23,845 bases of DNA from a virus. The DNA lies in the IMG/VR virus record IMGVR_UViG_3300017720_001307, positions 1-23,845 of that record; one strand, 5' to 3'. This document shows positions 2,959-15,673 of this stretch, piece after piece. The notes below the pieces were generated by a model. The model ran no database searches, was not told the DNA's origin, and was given only the letters and a program-made list of their open reading frames with translations. The translations under genes and the position numbers were made by a program. Within the stretch, counting starts at the first letter, position 1. Every line of letters begins with the position of its first letter.

Positions 2959-3906
2959 TTATTTAATGTTTGATAATATATTTAATATTGTTGCCATAAA
3001 TGGAATTTCTTTATCAACAGCCAACGCATCTCTATGTTGACCTTCTGCTAATACTAAAATAACTCCACTTACACTCCCATTTGCAAATTCATCTACTTTA
3101 TCATAAAGAAGTGAATACATTTCTGTAAAGTCCTGTACTTTTGAATCTGCTATAGTTTTTCTTATTTTGGTATATTTGTTTCTGGTATCATCTGAAGATT
3201 TTAGGATTTCTACAACTTTAGTTTTAAAATCAGAATCCATTAAATCATTTTTAGATACTTTTAATTCACCTTTAAATGAATTAAGTTGACAGGTATTTAT
3301 TACCTTTCTAATATCAGGATATGCTGAATCTATAATAGGTACTAAATCTTCAACCTTATAATTTACATCTTCGGTTTTTAAGATTTTATCCATTTGTACA
3401 GCTACATCCTTTTTAGTTGGAGGAATAATTTGGAATGTTTGACATCTACTTTGAATAGGTTCAATAATCTTTTCAACATAATTACAAGTTAATATAAACC
3501 TACAATGTTTAGAAAATGTTTCCATTAAATTCCTAAGTATTGCTTGTGCGTTTGGTGTCATATAATCAAACTCATCAAGTATTACTATCTTATACTTTTT
3601 AAAACCTTGCGATGATGCAAAGTTTTTTACTTTATTACGAACTGTATCTACATTGTTTTCATCAGATGCGTTTATAATCATATAATCACATTCTATTGAT
3701 TTTACAACCAATTTAGCTAATGTAGTTTTACCCGTACCAGCTCTACCAAATAATAGTAAATGAGGTACATCACCAGTTTCTATATATTGTGCAATCTTTT
3801 CTTTTAGGTGTGCATTACCCACATAATCATCAAGCTTTACAGGTCTATATTTTTCAACCCATAATGAATTATCTACTGATTCTTCAGTTTCTTCAAAAAA
3901 TGCCAT
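2959..3906 (-). CDS. 44: Clamp loader large subunit (T4 gp44-like AAA+ ATPase)
   Basis: The 315-residue protein is a clamp-loader ATPase that, with gp62, opens and loads the gp45 sliding clamp. It starts with the conserved LWVEKYRPVKLDDYVGN (residues 15-31). Walker A is GRAGTGKT (54-61), Walker B is ILDEFD (109-114), sensor 1 is FILTCN (137-142), and the clamp-loader SRC motif is QSRCQTF (152-158). Length matches T4 gp44 (319 residues). The ATG begins one base after the stop of the 62-residue protein upstream, and groEL follows after three bases, so this is a tight operon that should be read from promoter P2 in front of gp45. Confidence 0.95.
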   Translation of the reverse strand: MAFFEETEESVDNSLWVEKYRPVKLDDYVGNAHLKEKIAQYIETGDVPHLLLFGRAGTGKTTLAKLVVKSIECDYMIINASDENNVDTVRNKVKNFASSQGFKKYKIVILDEFDYMTPNAQAILRNLMETFSKHCRFILTCNYVEKIIEPIQSRCQTFQIIPPTKKDVAVQMDKILKTEDVNYKVEDLVPIIDSAYPDIRKVINTCQLNSFKGELKVSKNDLMDSDFKTKVVEILKSSDDTRNKYTKIRKTIADSKVQDFTEMYSLLYDKVDEFANGSVSGVILVLAEGQHRDALAVDKEIPFMATILNILSNIK

Positions 3907-3907
3907 A

Positions 3908-4096
3908 TTAATCTATTGTTGTATTTCTAGTCCAGTAATCAGATATGGAAGATATACTATATTCGTAAAGTGATTTCTTAACTTTTACTTCTGATAGTTT
4001 ATCTTTCAATAAATCCAATTGAGCTGGCGTTATGTTATAATGATGGATTCCTTCTAAGAACCCTCGTAACCATTGTACAAATTCTTTTTCGTTCAT
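3908..4096 (-). CDS. Small conserved-looking phage protein (WLRGFLEG motif)
   Basis: The 62-residue product begins EKEFVQWLRGFLEGIHHYNITPAQL. This W-x-x-G-F-x-E-[GA] pattern followed by a predicted helix (LDLLKDKLSEV) recurs, from memory, in many small phage proteins of unknown function. It has no cysteine cluster, signal peptide or membrane segment. Its ATG overlaps the last base of the preceding gene's stop codon (4096), and gp44 begins one base past its own stop. That tight spacing is good evidence that it is a real, co-translated gene despite its size. Function is unknown. Confidence 0.7.
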   Translation of the reverse strand: MNEKEFVQWLRGFLEGIHHYNITPAQLDLLKDKLSEVKVKKSLYEYSISSISDYWTRNTTID

Positions 4097-5313
4097 TACC
4101 TACCTACTTCTTTTAAATAATTTTCTTTCATTTTATCCCAACTCATACCAATTGCATCTATGTAAAACAGATGTTCTGGTTTAAGTTTGTTATTATCATG
4201 CAATTTAGAATATCTCTTAATTGCTTGTCTTTTCCACCAATTATTGATGTAATCAATACCTTCAGTAAACTTCTTTTTCATCTTCAAATCTTTCTCTTCG
4301 ATTTCAGAACGAAGGAACTCAGGTCCGTTTTCATACATCATAGCAAGATATACTCCTCTCTTAAAACCATGATGATAACTTGTAGCTTTGATACCACACT
4401 CTTTAAAAATCTGAGTTAGTATCTTTTGTTTGATACCACTTACAGGTCCACTAGCACCTTTACCAGCTCCCATATTTTTACCATTACGAATTCTTTCATT
4501 AGTAATAGCTTTCTGATACCACTCTGCTCTATTCTCTTTTATCCATTGATGCCAAGGGTCATAAAACTCATCATCTGGTTTTAAGGAAATCTTACCAGCC
4601 GATTCACCTAATGTTTTGTAATGTGGGATTCCATTATATTGGGAATGTATTCCGTAAAGAGAAGTTGTACCAACAGCGATTAAAGTTTGTCCATATTTCT
4701 TTTTCCAAAATTCTCTAACTTCTGGTAATGTACACATCATAGCTGTAAGTTTACCTCCTAAGAAATTATATCCCAATGGCTGAGTACATACTATAGTAGA
4801 TGCCATAGTTGTATAATTAAGTTTACCTTCTTTAAACTTATTCTCTTTATTCCAACCTATGTATTTATCTCTTACACCCATTGATGTAACATCAGATGCA
4901 AGTGATACTAAACCTAAACCTTTACCACTTTTTTTATCTTTAATAAAGATTTTAACATTCCTACCAGGATTAGCTGTCCAACTCATTGTATGAATCATTC
5001 TACGAAGGTGAGTCCACTTTGTGGCACTCTCTTTATCATCTACAATCTCAATACAAGGTTCTAACTCTTCAATTTCTTTAATAGTTAGTTCTTTGTTATT
5101 GATATCAGTTGGTTTCCACTGCCAATCATAATAAGATGCTATGGTAGATTTATCTCTTAACATAGAATCCTCCTGCAGCTCAACCCATTTCTTATATAAT
5201 GTCTGTTCTTCAACACTCATTTCCATAAGATAATCCATATTATCAATGAGCTTTTGTTTCTCATCCTCAAATATAAATTCAGGTTTAGCTGGTTCGGTAT
5301 CCCAAAAACTCAT
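4096..5313 (-). CDS. DUF4338 (Druantia DruA-like) domain protein
   Basis: The 405-residue protein has a central region (about 118-240) that matches the DUF4338 pattern of DruA, a component of the Druantia anti-phage system. Visible features are GLGLVSLASD, then VRDKYIGW (147-154), then a TIVCTQPLGYNFLGGKL segment like the family's 'N-RFLILP...NLAS..L' stretch, FWKKKYGQTLIAVGTTSLYG and a NGIPHYKTLGESAG end like 'Y.AANW..LG.T.GR'. The N-terminal 100 residues and the C-terminal 160 residues are unassigned, and the latter is basic and helical. It lies between gp45 and gp44, sharing base 5313 with gp45's stop and base 4096 with the next start. No other Druantia gene is present, so a defence role is not implied. 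A DNA-linked enzymatic role is possible but unproven. Confidence 0.65.
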   Translation of the reverse strand: MSFWDTEPAKPEFIFEDEKQKLIDNMDYLMEMSVEEQTLYKKWVELQEDSMLRDKSTIASYYDWQWKPTDINNKELTIKEIEELEPCIEIVDDKESATKWTHLRRMIHTMSWTANPGRNVKIFIKDKKSGKGLGLVSLASDVTSMGVRDKYIGWNKENKFKEGKLNYTTMASTIVCTQPLGYNFLGGKLTAMMCTLPEVREFWKKKYGQTLIAVGTTSLYGIHSQYNGIPHYKTLGESAGKISLKPDDEFYDPWHQWIKENRAEWYQKAITNERIRNGKNMGAGKGASGPVSGIKQKILTQIFKECGIKATSYHHGFKRGVYLAMMYENGPEFLRSEIEEKDLKMKKKFTEGIDYINNWWKRQAIKRYSKLHDNNKLKPEHLFYIDAIGMSWDKMKENYLKEVGR

Positions 5314-6008
5314 TATTTAATCTCTACTAAATAATAATTAGAAACATAATCTCCATCTTCAAAAGAAAGATGTGCTAATCCCTTTGAAGAAATCTTTAAT
5401 GATGATTTATTAGAACCCTTATTAGCGATTAAAATAGCTTTAAGATATTTTGCTGAAAATGCAATCGGTTCGATATCACCTTCACAAGTACAATTAACGT
5501 TAATACTAATTCTATTAGAATTGATTGAAGAGTATCCTAAGATGATTTCTCCTTTGTTATCTTTACAAGTGAATGTAAATGTATCAGCATCAGCTAATGC
5601 ACCTTTTGATTTGATAAACTTAGTAACAAATTCATCATCCAATGTTAAATCGGAATCAAATGGTGGTAATGCTTTTAAATCAGGTACCGCTGGGATTACT
5701 GATGGTGCAGCTAACATATACTGAACCTTAGTTCCCTTATCACTAAATTTAAGAGCGCCTGTAGTTTCTTCTACTTTGATTGAAGAATCTAATACACTTA
5801 ACAACCCCTTTAATTGAGATGTAGTATAAATACCAAAATCTCCAGTTGGGAATTCTTTTTCTGTAACAGTAACATCACCTAATAAAGTTTTGTCATCTGA
5901 TATCATTTTTACCGATACATTCGCATCAGTTGAGTTTAACATTACCGATTCTACCTCACCACCGAGATTATATCGATTAATAAAACCATCCAGTTTTAAT
6001 TTTTCCAT
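5313..6008 (-). CDS. 45: Sliding clamp (T4 gp45-like)
   Basis: The 231-residue product is almost the length of T4 gp45 (228) and shows its layout: an N-terminal domain with the FGIYTTSQLKGLLSVLD helix-strand unit (like T4 YDLNGFLGILSLV), a central VQYMLAAPSVIPAVPDLKALPP linker, a second-domain DDEFVTKFIKSKGAL helix, and a C-terminal YVSNYYLVEIK strand. The clamp forms a trimeric ring that tethers the polymerase and, in T4, activates late transcription. Promoter P2 (6070-6040) lies 32 bases upstream with no other gene between, so gp45 should head the unit gp45-DUF4338-62aa-gp44-groEL-YubB-like-zinc ribbon-gp62. There is no clear Shine-Dalgarno; the start is preceded by AAAAGATAAAAA. Confidence 0.9.
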   Translation of the reverse strand: MEKLKLDGFINRYNLGGEVESVMLNSTDANVSVKMISDDKTLLGDVTVTEKEFPTGDFGIYTTSQLKGLLSVLDSSIKVEETTGALKFSDKGTKVQYMLAAPSVIPAVPDLKALPPFDSDLTLDDEFVTKFIKSKGALADADTFTFTCKDNKGEIILGYSSINSNRISINVNCTCEGDIEPIAFSAKYLKAILIANKGSNKSSLKISSKGLAHLSFEDGDYVSNYYLVEIK

Positions 6009-6071: not shown

Positions 6072-7127
6072 TTATTTCGTAATTATATTTGAAAAAGTAT
6101 CACGCAACCAATCGTTTATATTTCCAAAGTTGCCTATTACTTTGTATTTATTTAAGATTTTCATAAATCCTAATTTTGAAATCGGAGAAATAGGTTCGTT
6201 AAATCTATCCAATACGTTCATTTTAATATTACCACTTATATCAACATCATCTAATTGCATTAGTTCTCTGTTTAATAGTATTTGGTCTTTAGCTTCAACT
6301 ATATCTTTATAGATTTTTATCTTACCCTTTTTCTCTTCATTTTTTTGTTCTGATAATTTTAATAAATCATCTACAGTTAATTTAACATCTTCCGTAATTT
6401 CAGGAAATCGTTTAACTACTGTTTTAATACCACATCCGTAAACACCTGGTATATTATCTGATTTATCACCATCCAAAACTCTGTAAAGTAAAAGGTTCTT
6501 TGATTCGATACCAAATTCTTCTTTTACCATTTTCGTATTATAAATCTTCTTCTTAGTTGGTGACCATACGATTGTATCATCATCTACTAATTGTAAGAAA
6601 TCTTTATCAGTTGACATTATAACGGATTGTTCACCTTCCTTTAAAAGTTTTGTAGATATATAAGCCATAATATCATCAGCTTCAACTCCATCGTAAATCA
6701 TTGTAGTTAAAGGTAATGCATCTAACATTTCATTTAACCAAACAAATTGCCTTTTCATTGATTCACGCTCATCTTCGTCGTTCATCAAATCTTTATATTG
6801 GCGATTTACTCTAAGTTTATTCTTATCTCTTTGAGCTTTATATCCACTAAATTTCTTTTTTCGGGAAAGTGAACCACCTTGTCCATCAAATACAACAACA
6901 ACACGAGTCGGTTGTACATTTCTAATTGCGTAACCTATTGATTTTAGAACACCAGTAACTCCACCAACATGCTCACCATCATCATTCATTGTAGGAATGG
7001 ATGACCAGCATCTGATAAATGTATTTAAACCATCTATAATTAATACTCTATCATTGAGTTTTTTATCGATATTTTGGTTGTGTTCTTTTTCAACCGAGTT
7101 CCATATGTTTTTGTATAATTGTTTCAT
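6072..7127 (-). CDS. rnh: 5'-3' exonuclease / RNase H of the FEN family (T4 Rnh-like)
   Basis: The 351-residue protein is a flap-endonuclease-family nuclease that would remove RNA primers from lagging-strand fragments. The acidic active site is visible: Asp32 (IIDGLN), Asp81 (VVFDGQGG), Glu149, Asp151 and Asp152 (GVEADDIM), Asp174 and Asp176 (MSTDKDFLQL). The DGDKSDNIPGVYGCGIKT segment (about 219-236) is the helix-3-turn-helix DNA-binding motif. Basic residues in the Lys90-Arg100 region fit the arch. It is somewhat longer than T4 RNase H (305 residues). The ATG directly follows the stop of the 77-residue protein with no gap. The order gp32-uvsX-small protein-rnh suggests one transcription unit. 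Confidence 0.93.
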   Translation of the reverse strand: MKQLYKNIWNSVEKEHNQNIDKKLNDRVLIIDGLNTFIRCWSSIPTMNDDGEHVGGVTGVLKSIGYAIRNVQPTRVVVVFDGQGGSLSRKKKFSGYKAQRDKNKLRVNRQYKDLMNDEDERESMKRQFVWLNEMLDALPLTTMIYDGVEADDIMAYISTKLLKEGEQSVIMSTDKDFLQLVDDDTIVWSPTKKKIYNTKMVKEEFGIESKNLLLYRVLDGDKSDNIPGVYGCGIKTVVKRFPEITEDVKLTVDDLLKLSEQKNEEKKGKIKIYKDIVEAKDQILLNRELMQLDDVDISGNIKMNVLDRFNEPISPISKLGFMKILNKYKVIGNFGNINDWLRDTFSNIITK

Positions 7128-7370: not shown

Positions 7371-8489
7371 TTATGCTTCTTCTTCGGCACCTTCAGAATT
7401 CCTTTCCATTGCTTCAACATCAAGGGTATCTGATTTATATTGTAGAATTGTTGATTCACATATCTTTTTATAGATTTGTTCTCTAACATCTTCTCTATTA
7501 TCCATTAATTCTATGAAATCTTTTGATTGGAATTTTAATTCCTCCCCAGTTTCAGTATCAATGTAAGTGTACCAAGCTCCAGCCTGTTTTAATAGTTTAT
7601 TTTCTTTCATTACTCCTAACCACGAACCGTAGTTATCTATTCCTCTATCAAAGTAGATTTCAAAATCAGCCGCCCTTAGAGGTGGTCCCATTCTGTTTTT
7701 TACTACTTGACAACGAACTTTCATTCCAACCGTCTTATCCTTACCATTTACCTTCATTTTGATTTGCCCCATATTCTTTAACCTTAATCTTACTGAAGCA
7801 TGGAAAGCAATAGCTTTTCCACCTGAAGTAGTCCAAGGGTCTCCGAACATAGCGTTCATCTTTTGTCTAAGTTGATTAGTGAATACCAATGAGATTTTCT
7901 GTCTACCAATCATATTGGTAATCTTTCTCATTGCCTTAGATATAATAATTGCCTTATCTGTAGCATATCCATCTTTTTTGTAATCAGCTGCCAACTCATT
8001 AGTTGTTGATGCTGCTGCTACCGAATCTACTACGATAGTAACTAATTTATCTTTGGAAGTTTCTCTAACTTTCTCAATGATAGTTTCTGTGAAATCAAAG
8101 ATTTGTTCAACCGAATCAGCTGATACATAAAGAAGTTTGGAAACATCAACACCGATTGCTTCTAAAAATTCTCTACTCACTGCCGTTTCTGTATCAATAA
8201 GAACAGCTACACCACCTTGCTTTTGTGTTTCAGCAAGTAGGTGAGCCGATACTAATGATTTACCCGATTGTTCTAAACCAGTAATTTCTGCGATTCTACC
8301 AACAGGAAAACCACCATAAGGGCGATTGGAAATTGCTACATCTAACATAGCACATCCTGTAGATACCCAACCTTGCACATTTGTAGGTGCTTCGTCCTCA
8401 TCTAAGAAGAATGCCACTTTGTTATTTTTCGCTTGTTTGTTAAGCTCACCCGCTAGGATGTCCGCTAAATCTAATTCTTTTTTCGCCAT
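7371..8489 (-). CDS. uvsX: RecA-like recombinase UvsX
   Basis: The 372-residue product is a RecA-family strand-exchange ATPase that works with gp32 in recombination-dependent replication. Walker A is GLEQSGKS (71-78). Next come the VLIDTETAVSREFLEAIGVD strand and acidic loop, Walker B as TIVVDSVAAASTTNEL, and the L1/L2 region VFTNQLRQKMNAMFGDPWTTSGGKAIAFHASVRLRL, which is close to the RecA signature (NQ.R.K.G...G.P..T.GG.A..F..S.R). The acidic C-terminus (NSEGAEEEA) resembles the regulatory tails of RecA/UvsX. Length is near T4 UvsX (391). It follows the gp32 stop by ten bases and lacks a clear Shine-Dalgarno. Confidence 0.93.
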   Translation of the reverse strand: MAKKELDLADILAGELNKQAKNNKVAFFLDEDEAPTNVQGWVSTGCAMLDVAISNRPYGGFPVGRIAEITGLEQSGKSLVSAHLLAETQKQGGVAVLIDTETAVSREFLEAIGVDVSKLLYVSADSVEQIFDFTETIIEKVRETSKDKLVTIVVDSVAAASTTNELAADYKKDGYATDKAIIISKAMRKITNMIGRQKISLVFTNQLRQKMNAMFGDPWTTSGGKAIAFHASVRLRLKNMGQIKMKVNGKDKTVGMKVRCQVVKNRMGPPLRAADFEIYFDRGIDNYGSWLGVMKENKLLKQAGAWYTYIDTETGEELKFQSKDFIELMDNREDVREQIYKKICESTILQYKSDTLDVEAMERNSEGAEEEA

Positions 8490-8499
8490 TTATTGGGGT

Positions 8500-9327
8500 T
8501 TATCCGTTAAACAAATCATCGAATGCAGCTGCTACATCATCAGTTTTCTTTGATGGTGCAGGTTTTTTCTCATCTACATCGAATGGTAAATCATCTTTTA
8601 CTGGTGCAGCTTCTTTCTTAGTTGAAAGAGTTTCTGCTGATACTGAAGGTTCACTAGCATTTTCATTTGCTGCGCCTGGATTTAACCAACCTTCTAATAC
8701 TGATTTTAATTCATCATAAGATAATTCAGAATATAAATCTGTAATTTCAGTTTGTGATTCCAAGAACTTTTGAACGTTATCAGCATTTTCAGTCAAAGGT
8801 GTTTGCTTTGGTTTAACTCTGATAGTTGTTACAGGATACGAAGTACCTGCTTCTTCAGCGGATTGATATTCAATTGTAATATCTCTACCACTGGTTGGGT
8901 CGGTGATATCACCATAATCTGGGTCTGCTATATATCCTAAAATTTCCTGATATACAGTTTTACCAAATCCCCAAAATTTCACTCCTTCACCTTCTTGCCC
9001 TCTAACCAAAACAGGTACGAAAGTTCTTAACTTCGGCTCCATTTGTTTAGCAGCTTTCCAATCTTCCTTATCACCCATTCTTTTTAGTTTATCCGCAAAC
9101 TCTACAATAGGGTCTGGTCTACCAAATGATTGTGGTGATAAATAAGTTTTGTTATTAATGTTGTAGTGAAAATACAATTCGATGAATGGATTATCCTTAT
9201 CGAATTTGTAAGGAACGATTCTTACTTGCGTTTTACCTGGTGTAGGTTTCCATAATGAATCACTCTTCTTTTGTGTGTTTTGTAGTTTGTTCAGTCTACC
9301 TCTGATTGCGTCAATGTTAATTGCCAT
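8500..9327 (-). CDS. 32: Single-stranded DNA-binding protein (T4 gp32-like), no zinc site
   Basis: The 275-residue protein binds single-stranded DNA during replication and recombination. It has a basic N-terminal arm (DAIRGRLNKLQNTQKK), the DSLWKPTPGKTQVRIVPYK start of the OB-fold core, FVPVLVRGQEGEGVKFWGFGKTVYQEILGYI, and a long low-complexity linker. It ends in an acidic tail (AAAFDDLFNG) like the one T4 gp32 uses to recruit partners. T4 gp32 holds zinc with a His and three Cys in the segment after the first strands. Here that segment reads YLSPQSFGRPDPIVEF and the whole protein contains no cysteine. The ATG is preceded by AAAAGGAG at a good distance, the strongest Shine-Dalgarno in the window. 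uvsX follows after ten bases. Confidence 0.88.
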   Translation of the reverse strand: MAINIDAIRGRLNKLQNTQKKSDSLWKPTPGKTQVRIVPYKFDKDNPFIELYFHYNINNKTYLSPQSFGRPDPIVEFADKLKRMGDKEDWKAAKQMEPKLRTFVPVLVRGQEGEGVKFWGFGKTVYQEILGYIADPDYGDITDPTSGRDITIEYQSAEEAGTSYPVTTIRVKPKQTPLTENADNVQKFLESQTEITDLYSELSYDELKSVLEGWLNPGAANENASEPSVSAETLSTKKEAAPVKDDLPFDVDEKKPAPSKKTDDVAAAFDDLFNG

Positions 9328-9448: not shown

Positions 9449-10057
9449 TTAAATTACATTTTTTTTGCTATTTTTTCCGGTCCATTTTCCATTCACCATA
9501 TGACTGTAAATTATGTTAAAGTATTCTCTATCAAAGTAATCTTTTGCTTCACCTTTAAGTTTTACTTTAACCACATCTGTATTTGGGAATTTTATTTTAG
9601 TACCATAATTAAACATAGTCATAATACAATTTTCGTTTGCTAATTTAATACTTTGTTTTGGAAATATTTCTTTGTTAACATCCCTATGAGTATCGTGAAA
9701 TATACCATCAAATGTTTTACCAATTACAGGTAAGATATGATACCAATCACCATGTAGTATTGTAACATTTGGTTTATCTTTAGCCCATTCACAAGCTTTT
9801 TCGTATATTTCGGGATGTTTTTCTATAATTGTATGGGATTTAATATTATAAGTTTGAATTTCTGTAGCTGAAATACCCATTCCAAATCCTATCTCTAAGA
9901 TATCTCCACCATTTTGGGTAACAACTTTTGCGAACTCTTTCATCACATCAGTTTCAGCCACATGCATAACTAACCTATGTTTTCTGAATTTAGTATTATC
10001 AAAATCAGAGGTAGTTATCTTATCCTCACTTATATTTAAACTAATTACTTTGCCCAC
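9449..10057 (-). CDS. Class I SAM methyltransferase, GAMT-like (guanidino/arginine type)
   Basis: The 202-residue protein is a seven-strand SAM-dependent methyltransferase. Motif I is DILEIGFGMGISATEIQ (52-68), followed by the acidic strand end TIIEKHPE (Glu79), the WAKDKPNVTILHGDW region (Asp104) and FDGIFHDTH (116-124). This set (LE-GFGMGI-AT, HxIIE, GDW, FDGI-x-DT) is the signature of guanidinoacetate N-methyltransferase and its arginine-delta-methylating relatives. In human GAMT the YDTYP Asp contacts the guanidino group, and Asp122 is the match here. It overlaps the upstream DUF1599 gene by 13 bases and should be read from promoter P3. The substrate is not shown: it could be a small guanidino compound, a protein arginine or a modified nucleobase. 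Confidence 0.75.
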   Translation of the reverse strand: MGKVISLNISEDKITTSDFDNTKFRKHRLVMHVAETDVMKEFAKVVTQNGGDILEIGFGMGISATEIQTYNIKSHTIIEKHPEIYEKACEWAKDKPNVTILHGDWYHILPVIGKTFDGIFHDTHRDVNKEIFPKQSIKLANENCIMTMFNYGTKIKFPNTDVVKVKLKGEAKDYFDREYFNIIYSHMVNGKWTGKNSKKNVI

Positions 10058-10389
10058 TTTCCTCTCTGAACTATTTGTGATATGATTCCATACACACTTA
10101 AATCTTCATATGTATCTTGAATATTCTCTCCAACTTCATCGGGTTGTCCTTTTACTACTAATTGTAATAATCTTTGGATTTTATCATTTTTTCTAAACCA
10201 CAACCCAGTTAGTGCTATTTTTTTATCATCTTCGGTTTCTAAGTTTGAACCTACTGATATATTACCTGGTCCGTAATTCCTTTGTTTTTTACAAAAGGTA
10301 ACATACATCTCATCTAATATCTTTTTAAATTCTTTTGTGGTTTGGGGATATTTTTCTTCGCAGAATTGCTGCGCTGATTGTTGTTTCAT
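10045..10389 (-). CDS. DUF1599 / Nmad1 (nucleotide modification associated) protein
   Basis: The 114-residue product matches the DUF1599 family, also called nucleotide modification associated domain 1. Key visible parts are KKQRNYGPGNIS (34-45), ALTGLWFRKNDKIQRLLQL (59-77), and ENIQDTYEDLSVYGIISQIVQRGKW (88-112). These compare with the family pattern YG-GNI, GL--R--DK--RL--L, E-I-DTY-DLA-YA and a terminal G-W. The ExxDxxxD-like acidic and aromatic residues suggest an all-alpha nucleotide-binding fold. Family members occur in phages, often near base-modification genes. The gene heads an operon with the methyltransferase (13-base overlap), and promoter P3 lies 24 bases upstream. There is no Shine-Dalgarno. 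The precise reaction is unknown. Confidence 0.75.
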   Translation of the reverse strand: MKQQSAQQFCEEKYPQTTKEFKKILDEMYVTFCKKQRNYGPGNISVGSNLETEDDKKIALTGLWFRKNDKIQRLLQLVVKGQPDEVGENIQDTYEDLSVYGIISQIVQRGKWAK

Positions 10390-10460: not shown

Positions 10461-10856
10461 TTAAGAAAATTTTATAATATCAAAAACTCTTGTGTTTATC
10501 TTCTTTGTTCCATCAACATTAGTTACTATGATGGAGTTTTTAAACTTATCCCAATCAACAGTAAAACTTTTATCTAAAGTTCCACCATTCTCTTCTTTGA
10601 TTAGTTCGTTTAATGCGTTAATTGTGTACAATGTATTAGATTGTTTTTTTCTATGTACCAATATTGTATCGGTCAATGGTTTCTCTGGCTTATATGCCGT
10701 ATCTATATTATAGGTTACAAACAATTCATCCAAATCAGATTTATTCTGTAGAACATATATGTAGTTGTAAACTATATGATATGTTTCTCTAATCTGTTGA
10801 AGCTGGTCTTGTAATTTCTCCTTAGTTGTAAAAGTACACAATAGTTGAGTTTTCAT
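10461..10856 (-). CDS. Unrecognised 131-residue protein
   Basis: I do not recognise this protein with a known function. It has no signal peptide, membrane segment or zinc motif. It alternates helix (TKEKLQDQLQQIRETYHIV) and strand (YNYIYVLQN, DTILVHRKK, NSIIVTNVDGTKK), suggesting a small alpha/beta fold. The segment DTILVHRKKQSNTLYTINALNELI is the most distinctive. It stands alone: 51 bases separate it from the upstream 744-residue gene, and promoter P3 for the next operon begins just past its stop. A weak purine stretch (GAAAGAGA) precedes the ATG. Confidence 0.6.
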   Translation of the reverse strand: MKTQLLCTFTTKEKLQDQLQQIRETYHIVYNYIYVLQNKSDLDELFVTYNIDTAYKPEKPLTDTILVHRKKQSNTLYTINALNELIKEENGGTLDKSFTVDWDKFKNSIIVTNVDGTKKINTRVFDIIKFS

Positions 10857-13153: not shown

Positions 13154-13771
13154 CTATATTACACTTTTTCTTCGTTTACAACTATATTCGTATTCACTCC
13201 AATGTTTAGTTGGTGTAGAGTTTGGAAAATAATAACATTTAGAATCTCCATTTGGAAAATTTATATATTTAAAATATCCACTTGGAACATGTCCACCTGT
13301 AGGTAGAACCATATGCCCTTCTTTAAATTCTAAAACTACTCTAACTTTTAGAGTACCGAATTTGTTTGCCCACACTCTTTCTTGTGCTTCTAACTCTCTC
13401 CATGCTCCTCTATTTAATTTATCAAATTGTAGAGAGCAATTTAAATACGAAAATGTTGTTTTTAAATTTTTATATGAATCGGTAAAGGCAGCGGCCGGAG
13501 CCATATGCCCTTTATCCCAAACATTATTCTTATAATCAGCTGAGTTAGATGTGTACACTCCTTTTACTGTGTAAAAGTCCATTCCATCTCTATCAGCTAC
13601 TTTAGTTATCTTACGAACATCATATTCAACCCAATTTGGTTGTTCCAACGTTTCATTGTAAGATACTTTAAAAACTTCATTTTTAATAATTACATTTGTT
13701 CTGGTCTGAGCGAACAAACTCAAAACAACTCCTACGCATAATAGTAGGGATAAGCTTAACTTCCTTTTCAT
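13154..13771 (-). CDS. Secreted DNA/RNA non-specific endonuclease (NUC1 family)
   Basis: The 205-residue product has a signal peptide (KRK, then hydrophobic 5-20, then FAQ at 20-22; cleavage after Ala21 is likely) followed by a beta-beta-alpha-metal nuclease domain. The family motif DRGHMAPA appears as DKGHMAPA (87-94), with His90 as general base. The second motif, SYLNCSLQFDKLNRGAW (108-124), supplies the Mg-binding Asn (Asn120) and the N-x-G-x-W signature, followed by RELE. Such enzymes cut DNA and RNA in the periplasm or outside the cell. The FAQ end of the leader is typical of Bacteroidota exports. It lies after polA with a 29-base gap and no Shine-Dalgarno. Possible roles are degradation of host or extracellular nucleic acid for nucleotide salvage, or loosening of DNA-rich matrix. 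None is shown by sequence. Confidence 0.9.
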   Translation of the reverse strand: MKRKLSLSLLLCVGVVLSLFAQTRTNVIIKNEVFKVSYNETLEQPNWVEYDVRKITKVADRDGMDFYTVKGVYTSNSADYKNNVWDKGHMAPAAAFTDSYKNLKTTFSYLNCSLQFDKLNRGAWRELEAQERVWANKFGTLKVRVVLEFKEGHMVLPTGGHVPSGYFKYINFPNGDSKCYYFPNSTPTKHWSEYEYSCKRRKSVI

Positions 13772-13800: not shown

Positions 13801-15081
13801 TTAGAGTTTTGAATAATCCGAACCCCAATCCTGCTTAACTGGGAATCCGAATGACTCTAATGTTTCTTTTACTTTTAGTATAGTTTCTTTATCTTCTATA
13901 CCAAACTCATATAAGAATGAATCGTATGTGTAAAGAATAGGAAGGGGTAAACCTTCTTTTTTTAATTTATTCAATACTTCGATGTTGAATTCCGTTTCTG
14001 TCGCTTGTAGAATGTAGTTAAAGAATTTTTGAGCGTTTGGTTGTTCAATCCACCCCAACGGAATCTTTCTACCTTTTGGTGTTTGTAGATATCCTCTATC
14101 AACCGATTCGATTTGCATTTTGTGAATAAACTTATCTACTTTGTCGAAGAACGGAATCTTTCTATCTTCATCGGATACACCACCATAAAGGATTCTAAAC
14201 GTTCTTCCTTTGGATTCATCATAATCACAACCATATTGGTCTGCCAACCATTGGTGAACCGAAGTTTTTGGTAAATCGTATCCAATCAACTTTGCTATTA
14301 TTCTAACGTGATACGCATCGTAATCAAATTGTAATAATGTTTTACCATCTTTTGGTATAAAACACTCCCTACTACCATCTTTCTTATTAAGTGCTCCGTA
14401 ATTGATTCCTAAATGCCTATTTGAAGGTCTTGAGGTTATTGTGTATGGATTGTACTCCGTATATACCCTACTCCCCCCATCGCTTATGGATTTATGATTG
14501 CTTGGCCATCTATCAAAAAATTTTTCCCTATCGACCCGAACCCCCAATCGTTCTACATCTGAAAGGATAGGAATCATAGTATCATCTACCCAATTTTTAC
14601 CAATATTCTCATTTAGTGGTAAATTTTTGCTTATCTCATCGGTTATACCTCTTAGTACTTCACCCCACTTCATTATAGAGATACTTTTACCTAAATCATC
14701 TCTCATACCCAATCTATGGTAAAAGTTCGTTAAAACCTCTATTTTCTCTCTAAATGGATATATTTTATTATGCATAAAGAATAATACCGTTTGAACATCT
14801 TTCAAATCCGTTATTCCTAAATCAGTTTGTAACAATGATTTTTTATCCCAACACCATTTCTTTTTGTTAGAGGTTGTTAAGTCTATTTCTAACTTTTCAC
14901 AATCATTATGATTAAATGGTAGTATAAAATCTAAGTTTCGGAATTGGACATAGAGAAATGACAACCCATTATTCATAGGATGCCGTTCCAAATCGAAGAA
15001 AATTGGAATAATTACTGATTCTTCATTATTCCAATATTCTAAGAATTGTTCTTTCTCATATTGAGATTCTACTATTATCAA
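13801..15081 (-). CDS. Compact family A DNA polymerase with altered motifs
   Basis: The 426-residue protein has the palm and fingers of PolA-type polymerases. It shows TITSRPSN (214-221), motif A QFDYDAYHVR (251-260, catalytic Asp253), motif B K291-x3-F295-x3-Y299-G, the YLQTPKGRKIPL turn (331-342), NYILQATETEFN, and motif C TYDSFLYE (385-392, catalytic Asp387). The oddities are that the steric-gate Glu of motif A is His258, the usual Arg four residues before the motif B Lys is Tyr287, and HDE of motif C is YDS. The N-terminal 170 residues may be a reduced 3'-5' exonuclease: FFDLE (28-32) resembles exo I DxE, and the rest is unclear. T7 polymerase has 704 residues. It follows the LPD29 gene by one base, read from P4. 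T4-like phages usually use a family B gp43, so this may be the replicase, one half of a split enzyme or an accessory polymerase. Confidence 0.82.
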   Translation of the reverse strand: MIIVESQYEKEQFLEYWNNEESVIIPIFFDLERHPMNNGLSFLYVQFRNLDFILPFNHNDCEKLEIDLTTSNKKKWCWDKKSLLQTDLGITDLKDVQTVLFFMHNKIYPFREKIEVLTNFYHRLGMRDDLGKSISIMKWGEVLRGITDEISKNLPLNENIGKNWVDDTMIPILSDVERLGVRVDREKFFDRWPSNHKSISDGGSRVYTEYNPYTITSRPSNRHLGINYGALNKKDGSRECFIPKDGKTLLQFDYDAYHVRIIAKLIGYDLPKTSVHQWLADQYGCDYDESKGRTFRILYGGVSDEDRKIPFFDKVDKFIHKMQIESVDRGYLQTPKGRKIPLGWIEQPNAQKFFNYILQATETEFNIEVLNKLKKEGLPLPILYTYDSFLYEFGIEDKETILKVKETLESFGFPVKQDWGSDYSKL

Positions 15082-15082
15082 T

Positions 15083-15673
15083 TTAGCTTAATACTAATGA
15101 ACATCTTTCATATTCTTTCTTACTCATATAAGTTTTGTTATATTCTAAGAATGAACCTCCAAATTTATTATTAACCATATCTACCATAGTTTTCCAATCA
15201 GGATTAGATAGATTTTCTTTATACTCATTGTATGAGTTAACCCAATACTCAACAGAGCCCCAAGTTGGTTTGTTTTCAATAAATACATATGATGGGAAAT
15301 ATTTTAAAGGAGTTCCATTTTCTGAAGAAACAGAATCTTCTCTCATTTCATACATATCAATCATACCATTGAAAGTACCACCTTGCAGAATGTATTTCCA
15401 TTCTGATATCTTTTTGAATACATCATAATCTACTTCCGAACCATCGGTGTTACATACATTAACTCTTACAGAAGAACCACCACTATAAACATCAGAAGTA
15501 GCCCACACCTTTAAGGAAGGGTAATTTTTCTTAACAAATTGTTTGATTATCGAAGCACAACTCTTAGCGTTCATATAGATGTATTTTCCACCATCATAAT
15601 TATCATCTCCGATTTGTGTAACAGGAAGTTGGAACTCAGTTCCGTTGATTGAAAATTTAAATTTTTTACTCAT
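15083..15673 (-). CDS. LPD29-domain protein (polyvalent-protein associated)
   Basis: The 196-residue protein carries a region (about 35-110) matching the pattern of LPD29, a 'large polyvalent protein associated' domain from phages and conjugative elements. The elements are CASIIKQFVKKNYPSLKVWATSDVYSGGSSVRVNV, TDGSEVDYDVFKKI, and GGTFNGMIDMYE (like FDGMxD). The domain is usually one piece of a long multidomain protein delivered with DNA into a cell. Here it stands alone with a C-terminal extension of about 85 residues rich in Tyr and Asn. Its function is not known. It is the first gene after promoter P4 and is followed by polA after one base, so the two are co-transcribed. There is no Shine-Dalgarno; the sequence before the ATG is A/T only for about 12 bases. 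Confidence 0.65.
   Translation of the reverse strand: MSKKFKFSINGTEFQLPVTQIGDDNYDGGKYIYMNAKSCASIIKQFVKKNYPSLKVWATSDVYSGGSSVRVNVCNTDGSEVDYDVFKKISEWKYILQGGTFNGMIDMYEMREDSVSSENGTPLKYFPSYVFIENKPTWGSVEYWVNSYNEYKENLSNPDWKTMVDMVNNKFGGSFLEYNKTYMSKKEYERCSLVLS

Follow-up and report, generated by a model that had tools for sequence, protein, structure and literature searches.

Replication in T4 is the textbook case of one family B polymerase working with accessory factors. The DNA considered here, a 23.8-kb virus fragment (the window), raises the question of what a small family A polymerase, hereafter sPolA, does beside genes for a T4-type clamp, clamp loader and recombinase. A sequence-only reading of the window described this protein as a minimal family A enzyme and considered three roles: a split replicase, a replicase adapted to modified nucleotides, or a repair or template-switching polymerase. 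On the evidence below, sPolA is probably a helper for short DNA stretches in marine T4-type phages, and not their main copier.

The sPolA gene and its product

The features of the gene, its product and the gene upstream are as follows.

13801..15081, minus strand: sPolA, small thumbless family A polymerase, 426 aa (ORF, alignment and model); key residues R218, D253, H258, K291, F295, Y299, Q359 and Y386-D387-S388
14617..15081, minus strand: vestigial 3'-5' exonuclease-like N-terminal domain, about residues 1-155 (alignment and model)
13801..14601, minus strand: polymerase domain, about residues 161-426, without thumb and with shortened fingers (alignment and model)
15083..15673, minus strand: LPD29-domain protein gene, immediately upstream of sPolA

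The ORF recognized earlier at 13801-15081 is real and encodes a 426-aa polymerase-like protein, but its strand has to be corrected to minus. The plus-strand reading of this interval contains 33 stops, whereas the minus-strand ORF begins with a TTG directly past the stop codon that ends the LPD29-domain gene and runs for 426 amino acids with no internal stop. The whole-protein score of the window sPolA against PF00476 (DNA_pol_A; 22.9 bits) falls below the curated cut-off of 34.3 bits, and the protein is therefore referred to here as having a divergent family A fold rather than as a routine member of that family; the family member from Flavobacterium phage immuto clears the cut-off, at 43.9 bits (Pfam). 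The PHROGs match is to DNA polymerase (1.9e-14). A search of solved structures with the single sPolA sequence as query gave no significant match, and the same search with an sPolA profile found Klenow at 1.1e-6.

Structure prediction, which the sequence-only reading had called for, yielded a Klenow-like fold over the whole chain (AlphaFold; 37 sequences from the window and IMG/VR; pLDDT 89.6, pTM 0.89). The model can be aligned with the large fragment of Bst Pol I along 398 residues (Z 25.6, 3.6 Å, about 16% identity), Foldseek matches it to the Bst/Klenow Pol I large fragment with an E value of 6e-18, and the model and fold searches together identify a Pol I-type palm and fingers. The description of the enzyme as minimal was correct in that it is reduced, but too mild. 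Every member aligned lacks the thumb, about 90 residues that would lie between helix H and the TxxxR motif, and the model contains no thumb helices. The segment past motif B is shorter than in E. coli Pol I, and the fingers are short. The search for a conserved exo I DxE (D30 and E32 in the window protein) across the family found none, this region being variable, and the D424 and D501 exonuclease regions are shortened or missing in the alignment. Lacking the proofreading carboxylates, sPolA would be a proofreading-free enzyme.

Active-site residues and constraint

When sPolA is aligned with the Pol I of E. coli and with PolAs of phages, D253 falls opposite D705, H258 opposite E710, Tyr287 opposite R754, K291 opposite K758, and Y386-D387-S388 opposite H881-D882-E883. 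The residues singled out from the sequence alone thus all stand: both catalytic Asp residues (253 and 387) and the motif B Lys291 are present, the sugar-gate Glu is replaced by His258, HDE has become YDS in motif C, and the motif B Arg is absent. Among non-redundant family members, R218, D253, K291, Y299, Q359 and D387 (equivalent to R668, D705, K758, Y766, Q849 and D882) are present in 118/118, as are the motif A Asp, the motif B Lys...Tyr-Gly and the motif C Asp. His at the gate and Tyr-Asp in motif C are equally invariant (118/118 for each), with a Glu gate and HD found nowhere in this set. The R754 position is Tyr in 112 of the 118 members, and the E883 position is Ser in 104 and Ala in 14. 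Because the odd residues are fixed across the 118 members, they are family signatures rather than marks of decay. Decay or dispensability of the gene was rejected, as none of the 118 members has lost a catalytic Asp and sPolA is present at the readable UvsX loci. The median pairwise dN/dS is 0.17, with stronger constraint on the polymerase domain (0.14) than on the N-terminal domain (0.23); the gene is under purifying selection.

The substitutions are not all equally unusual. Ser at the E883 position is ordinary among phage enzymes; the true departures are His at the gate and Tyr in motif C. Motif C is HDS in CRP-3 PolA, and the family A polymerase of Thermus phage vB_Tt72 (Tt72 polymerase) resembles sPolA in having Ser at this position and is active, its S616A mutant keeping 76% activity (PMC9324360). 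Tt72 polymerase differs from sPolA in its strong proofreading, its thumb and its Glu gate (PMC9324360). The gate is Glu in all six other PolAs compared, those of E. coli, immuto (777 aa), P318, AnnaL29, CRP-3 and Tt72, the last taken from PMC9324360; in Tt72 polymerase the gate mutant E389A has 35% activity, and D384A and D615A have 4% (PMC9324360). A His gate could loosen sugar selection, but its side chain is bulky, and any prediction would be unsafe. Relative to the bacterial Pol I large fragment (Klenow/Bst), sPolA thus shares the fold and the equivalents of R668, D705, K758, F762, Y766, Q849 and D882, but differs by E710H, R754Y, H881Y and E883S/A, by having no thumb and short fingers, and by an exonuclease site that is not conserved.

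Distribution and gene neighbourhood

At least 592 relatives of sPolA were found in IMG/VR. Among 50,697 phage records searched, it occurs in three lineages only, those of immuto, Microcystis phage Mel-JY01 and the uncultured 484-kb LR756508; the remaining matches are ordinary PolAs. It also occurs in metagenome-assembled genome (MAG) contigs of Flavobacteriales and Winogradskyella. The immuto (gp001, NC_055915) and Mel-JY01 proteins, which share 27% and 26% identity with the window sPolA, have the same length, the His gate and YDS/YDA, and are encoded upstream of p131-gp32; the former is annotated as "DNA polymerase family A" and the latter as "hypothetical protein". In a Flammeovirgaceae MAG contig (L210:8200-8270), unrelated DNA meets the sPolA gene mid-frame, probably through chimeric assembly, and this truncated copy does not look like a degraded gene.

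The genes of the window that accompany sPolA are listed below.

10461..10856, minus strand: p131, conserved 131-aa protein, candidate sPolA partner (co-occurrence)
8500..9327, minus strand: gp32-like ssDNA-binding protein (PF08804, 2.2e-14)
7371..8489, minus strand: UvsX/RecA-type recombinase (PF00154, 4.3e-59)
6072..7127, minus strand: 5'-3' exonuclease/flap nuclease of the Pol I N-terminal-domain type (PF02739, 1.7e-33)
5313..6008, minus strand: gp45-like sliding clamp (phrog_223, 2.9e-13)
2959..3906, minus strand: gp44-like clamp loader (phrog_168, 5.2e-82)

The gene order, with local variation, is the same in all clades: baseplate genes, sPolA, a variable segment, p131, gp32, RecA/UvsX, flap nuclease, gp41 and NrdB. 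In the window, this order is interrupted by the gene of a NucA-type nuclease and by those of a protein of 744 aa, an Nmad1-like protein and a methyltransferase. Close relatives keep the neighbour that directly follows sPolA (13154-13771, minus strand), the gene of a DNA/RNA non-specific endonuclease (PF01223) whose product probably bears a signal peptide. sPolA is present at every UvsX locus with at least about 8.4 kb of upstream DNA; the one apparent exception (L154) is the same contig as L020, with sPolA lying just past the end of the stretch. It is also found at 35/35 p131 loci having at least 5.4 kb upstream, and p131 occurs in the same three phage lineages. p131 is highly conserved and is modelled with a pLDDT of 93; nothing exceeded the cut-off in a Pfam search, and fold searches gave no convincing relative (best Foldseek E value 0.24; highest Z 6.2, for the ferredoxin-like N-terminal half). 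Linkage of this kind would not in itself demonstrate a joint function.

Replicases of the relatives

As the window is a fragment, its own gp43 would lie outside the view, and statements about the replicase rest on relatives whose sPolA is 58-77% identical. Of 25 relatives searched, 18 gave a PolB match above the cut-off; the other seven are immuto and six contigs of 48-69 kb, which are fragments. The intact gp43-like family B polymerases are 838-855 aa long, and the DTDS, SLYP and KKRY motifs were found in 10 of 10 PolBs examined. In the immuto/L211 clade the PolB is split between motifs A and C, with motif A in an ORF of 556-584 aa and motif C in one of 307-324 aa; the halves, seen in L300, L301 and L302, carry the SLYP/DIE and DTDS motifs. 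No PolB was found in 8 of 15 records searched in this clade (seven linear contigs and the Winogradskyella MAG). Immuto differs in that its replicase candidate is a second, full-length family A polymerase of 777 aa, no PolB being detected. A DnaG-type primase of about 315 aa is encoded by the four contigs larger than 200 kb and by immuto, and falls below the cut-off in Mel-JY01 and LR756508.

The search for a gp43 or another PolA, proposed in the sequence-only reading, thus had a positive outcome in relatives: most larger contigs encode a gp43-like PolB, intact or split, and immuto encodes a second PolA. That reading had held that a gp43 elsewhere, together with a gene that is dispensable or degraded in relatives, would count against it; the gp43 is there, but relatives retain the gene in undegraded form.

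Possible roles of sPolA

Since most relatives with larger contigs encode a separate PolB or full PolA, sPolA appears not to be the main replicase. The contrary proposal, that sPolA is itself the principal replicase or one half of a family A replicase in two parts, finds a foothold in small contigs such as the window, which show no other polymerase gene, but the polymerases of most larger relatives oppose it, and motifs A, B and C all lie within sPolA, which is therefore not half an enzyme. The main-replicase reading is already largely refuted, and either version is extremely improbable. Adaptation to modified nucleotides was suggested by the methyltransferase and the weak Nmad1-like gene about 3-5 kb from sPolA. 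The Nmad1 assignment (ORF 10045-10389) reduces to a sub-threshold DUF1599 match (16.8 bits against a cut-off of 25; Pfam). The methyltransferase occurs at this place in the nearest relatives only and is not conserved with sPolA, and in a clade of about 36% identity the operon has no Nmad1-like gene but retains sPolA. The annotation of immuto includes a 7-deazaguanine pathway with DpdA, but DpdA works on finished DNA. Such an adaptation is very improbable.

The proposal of a repair or template-switching polymerase survives, from genomic context. We favour, with modest confidence, a catalytically competent, proofreading-free, thumbless family A polymerase accessory to a gp43-type replicase; what the computation shows is the fold, motif conservation, loss of the thumb and exonuclease site, a separate replicase and primase, and constant linkage to gp32, the recombinase, the flap nuclease, the helicase and p131. 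Such an enzyme would add short stretches of DNA to fill gaps, to extend ends in D-loops or to bypass lesions, with substrates that gp32 and UvsX may deliver, and the flap nuclease would receive its product, the pair forming a "split Pol I". Absence of the thumb would imply low processivity and the need for a partner, possibly p131, to hold the DNA. A more specific version, in which a widespread and hitherto undescribed family A subfamily, thumbless and with an invariant His gate, forms a two-subunit enzyme with p131 as DNA-holding subunit for recombination-coupled or primer-handoff synthesis in T4-type phages, is a tentative and somewhat doubtful possibility. Catalysis could be very weak, given that other residues stand in for the Glu of the gate, the Arg of motif B and the His of motif C and that loss of the thumb should weaken DNA binding. 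The same losses, with the decayed exonuclease site, would suit a pseudo-polymerase without catalytic activity, whose structural or regulatory task would be to bind primer termini and bring in gp32, UvsX or the helicase; this is nevertheless unlikely, as all 118 members keep the metal-binding Asp pair, Lys and Tyr of motif B and the counterparts of R668 and Q849, residues that a dead enzyme would not need. It is quite unlikely, too, that sPolA makes or extends primers, as a short initiator polymerase lengthening RNA primers before gp43 takes over, its His gate relaxing sugar discrimination. The ribonucleotide-excluding Glu is replaced by His in every member, and the gene shares one cluster with the gp41 helicase in most clades; however, His is still a bulky gate, and the DnaG-type primase of the largest relatives already covers de novo priming, so a primase is not the first choice.

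Precedents and significance

In the open-access literature on phages pairing family A and B polymerases, the only precedent found was a Pol III alpha. Group 2.2 jumbo phages carry a minimal split Pol III alpha beside PolB, for which repair or one-strand synthesis has been proposed (PMC7824862). As with sPolA, a reduced second polymerase accompanies a T4-type PolB replisome (PMC7824862), but the jumbo-phage enzyme is a Pol III (pol beta fold) in two pieces, whereas sPolA belongs to family A. The open-access papers searched describe no family A counterpart without a thumb, a scope that makes this a weak absence, and a search by terms of a virioplankton PolA survey (PMC6302109) found no mention of such a protein.

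A large marine T4-type lineage thus keeps a second, stripped-down family A polymerase whatever its replicase (intact PolB, split PolB or PolA), which suggests that gp43 leaves some polymerase step of recombination-dependent replication or repair to another enzyme. As a very small thumbless family A core, sPolA is also useful for probing the roles of the thumb and the Glu gate.

Other genes of the window

Four further minus-strand genes were observed. A DruA-domain protein (PF14236, Druantia; 4096-5313) is encoded between the gp45 clamp and clamp-loader genes, and at the same place in the relatives L160 and L164. A 62-aa ORF of no family (3908-4096) separates the DruA gene from the clamp-loader gene, near the place expected for gp62. 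A phage-encoded GroEL (1357-2955) adjoins the clamp loader, and a phytanoyl-CoA dioxygenase (PhyH) gene is carried by this T4-type phage at 15963-16727.
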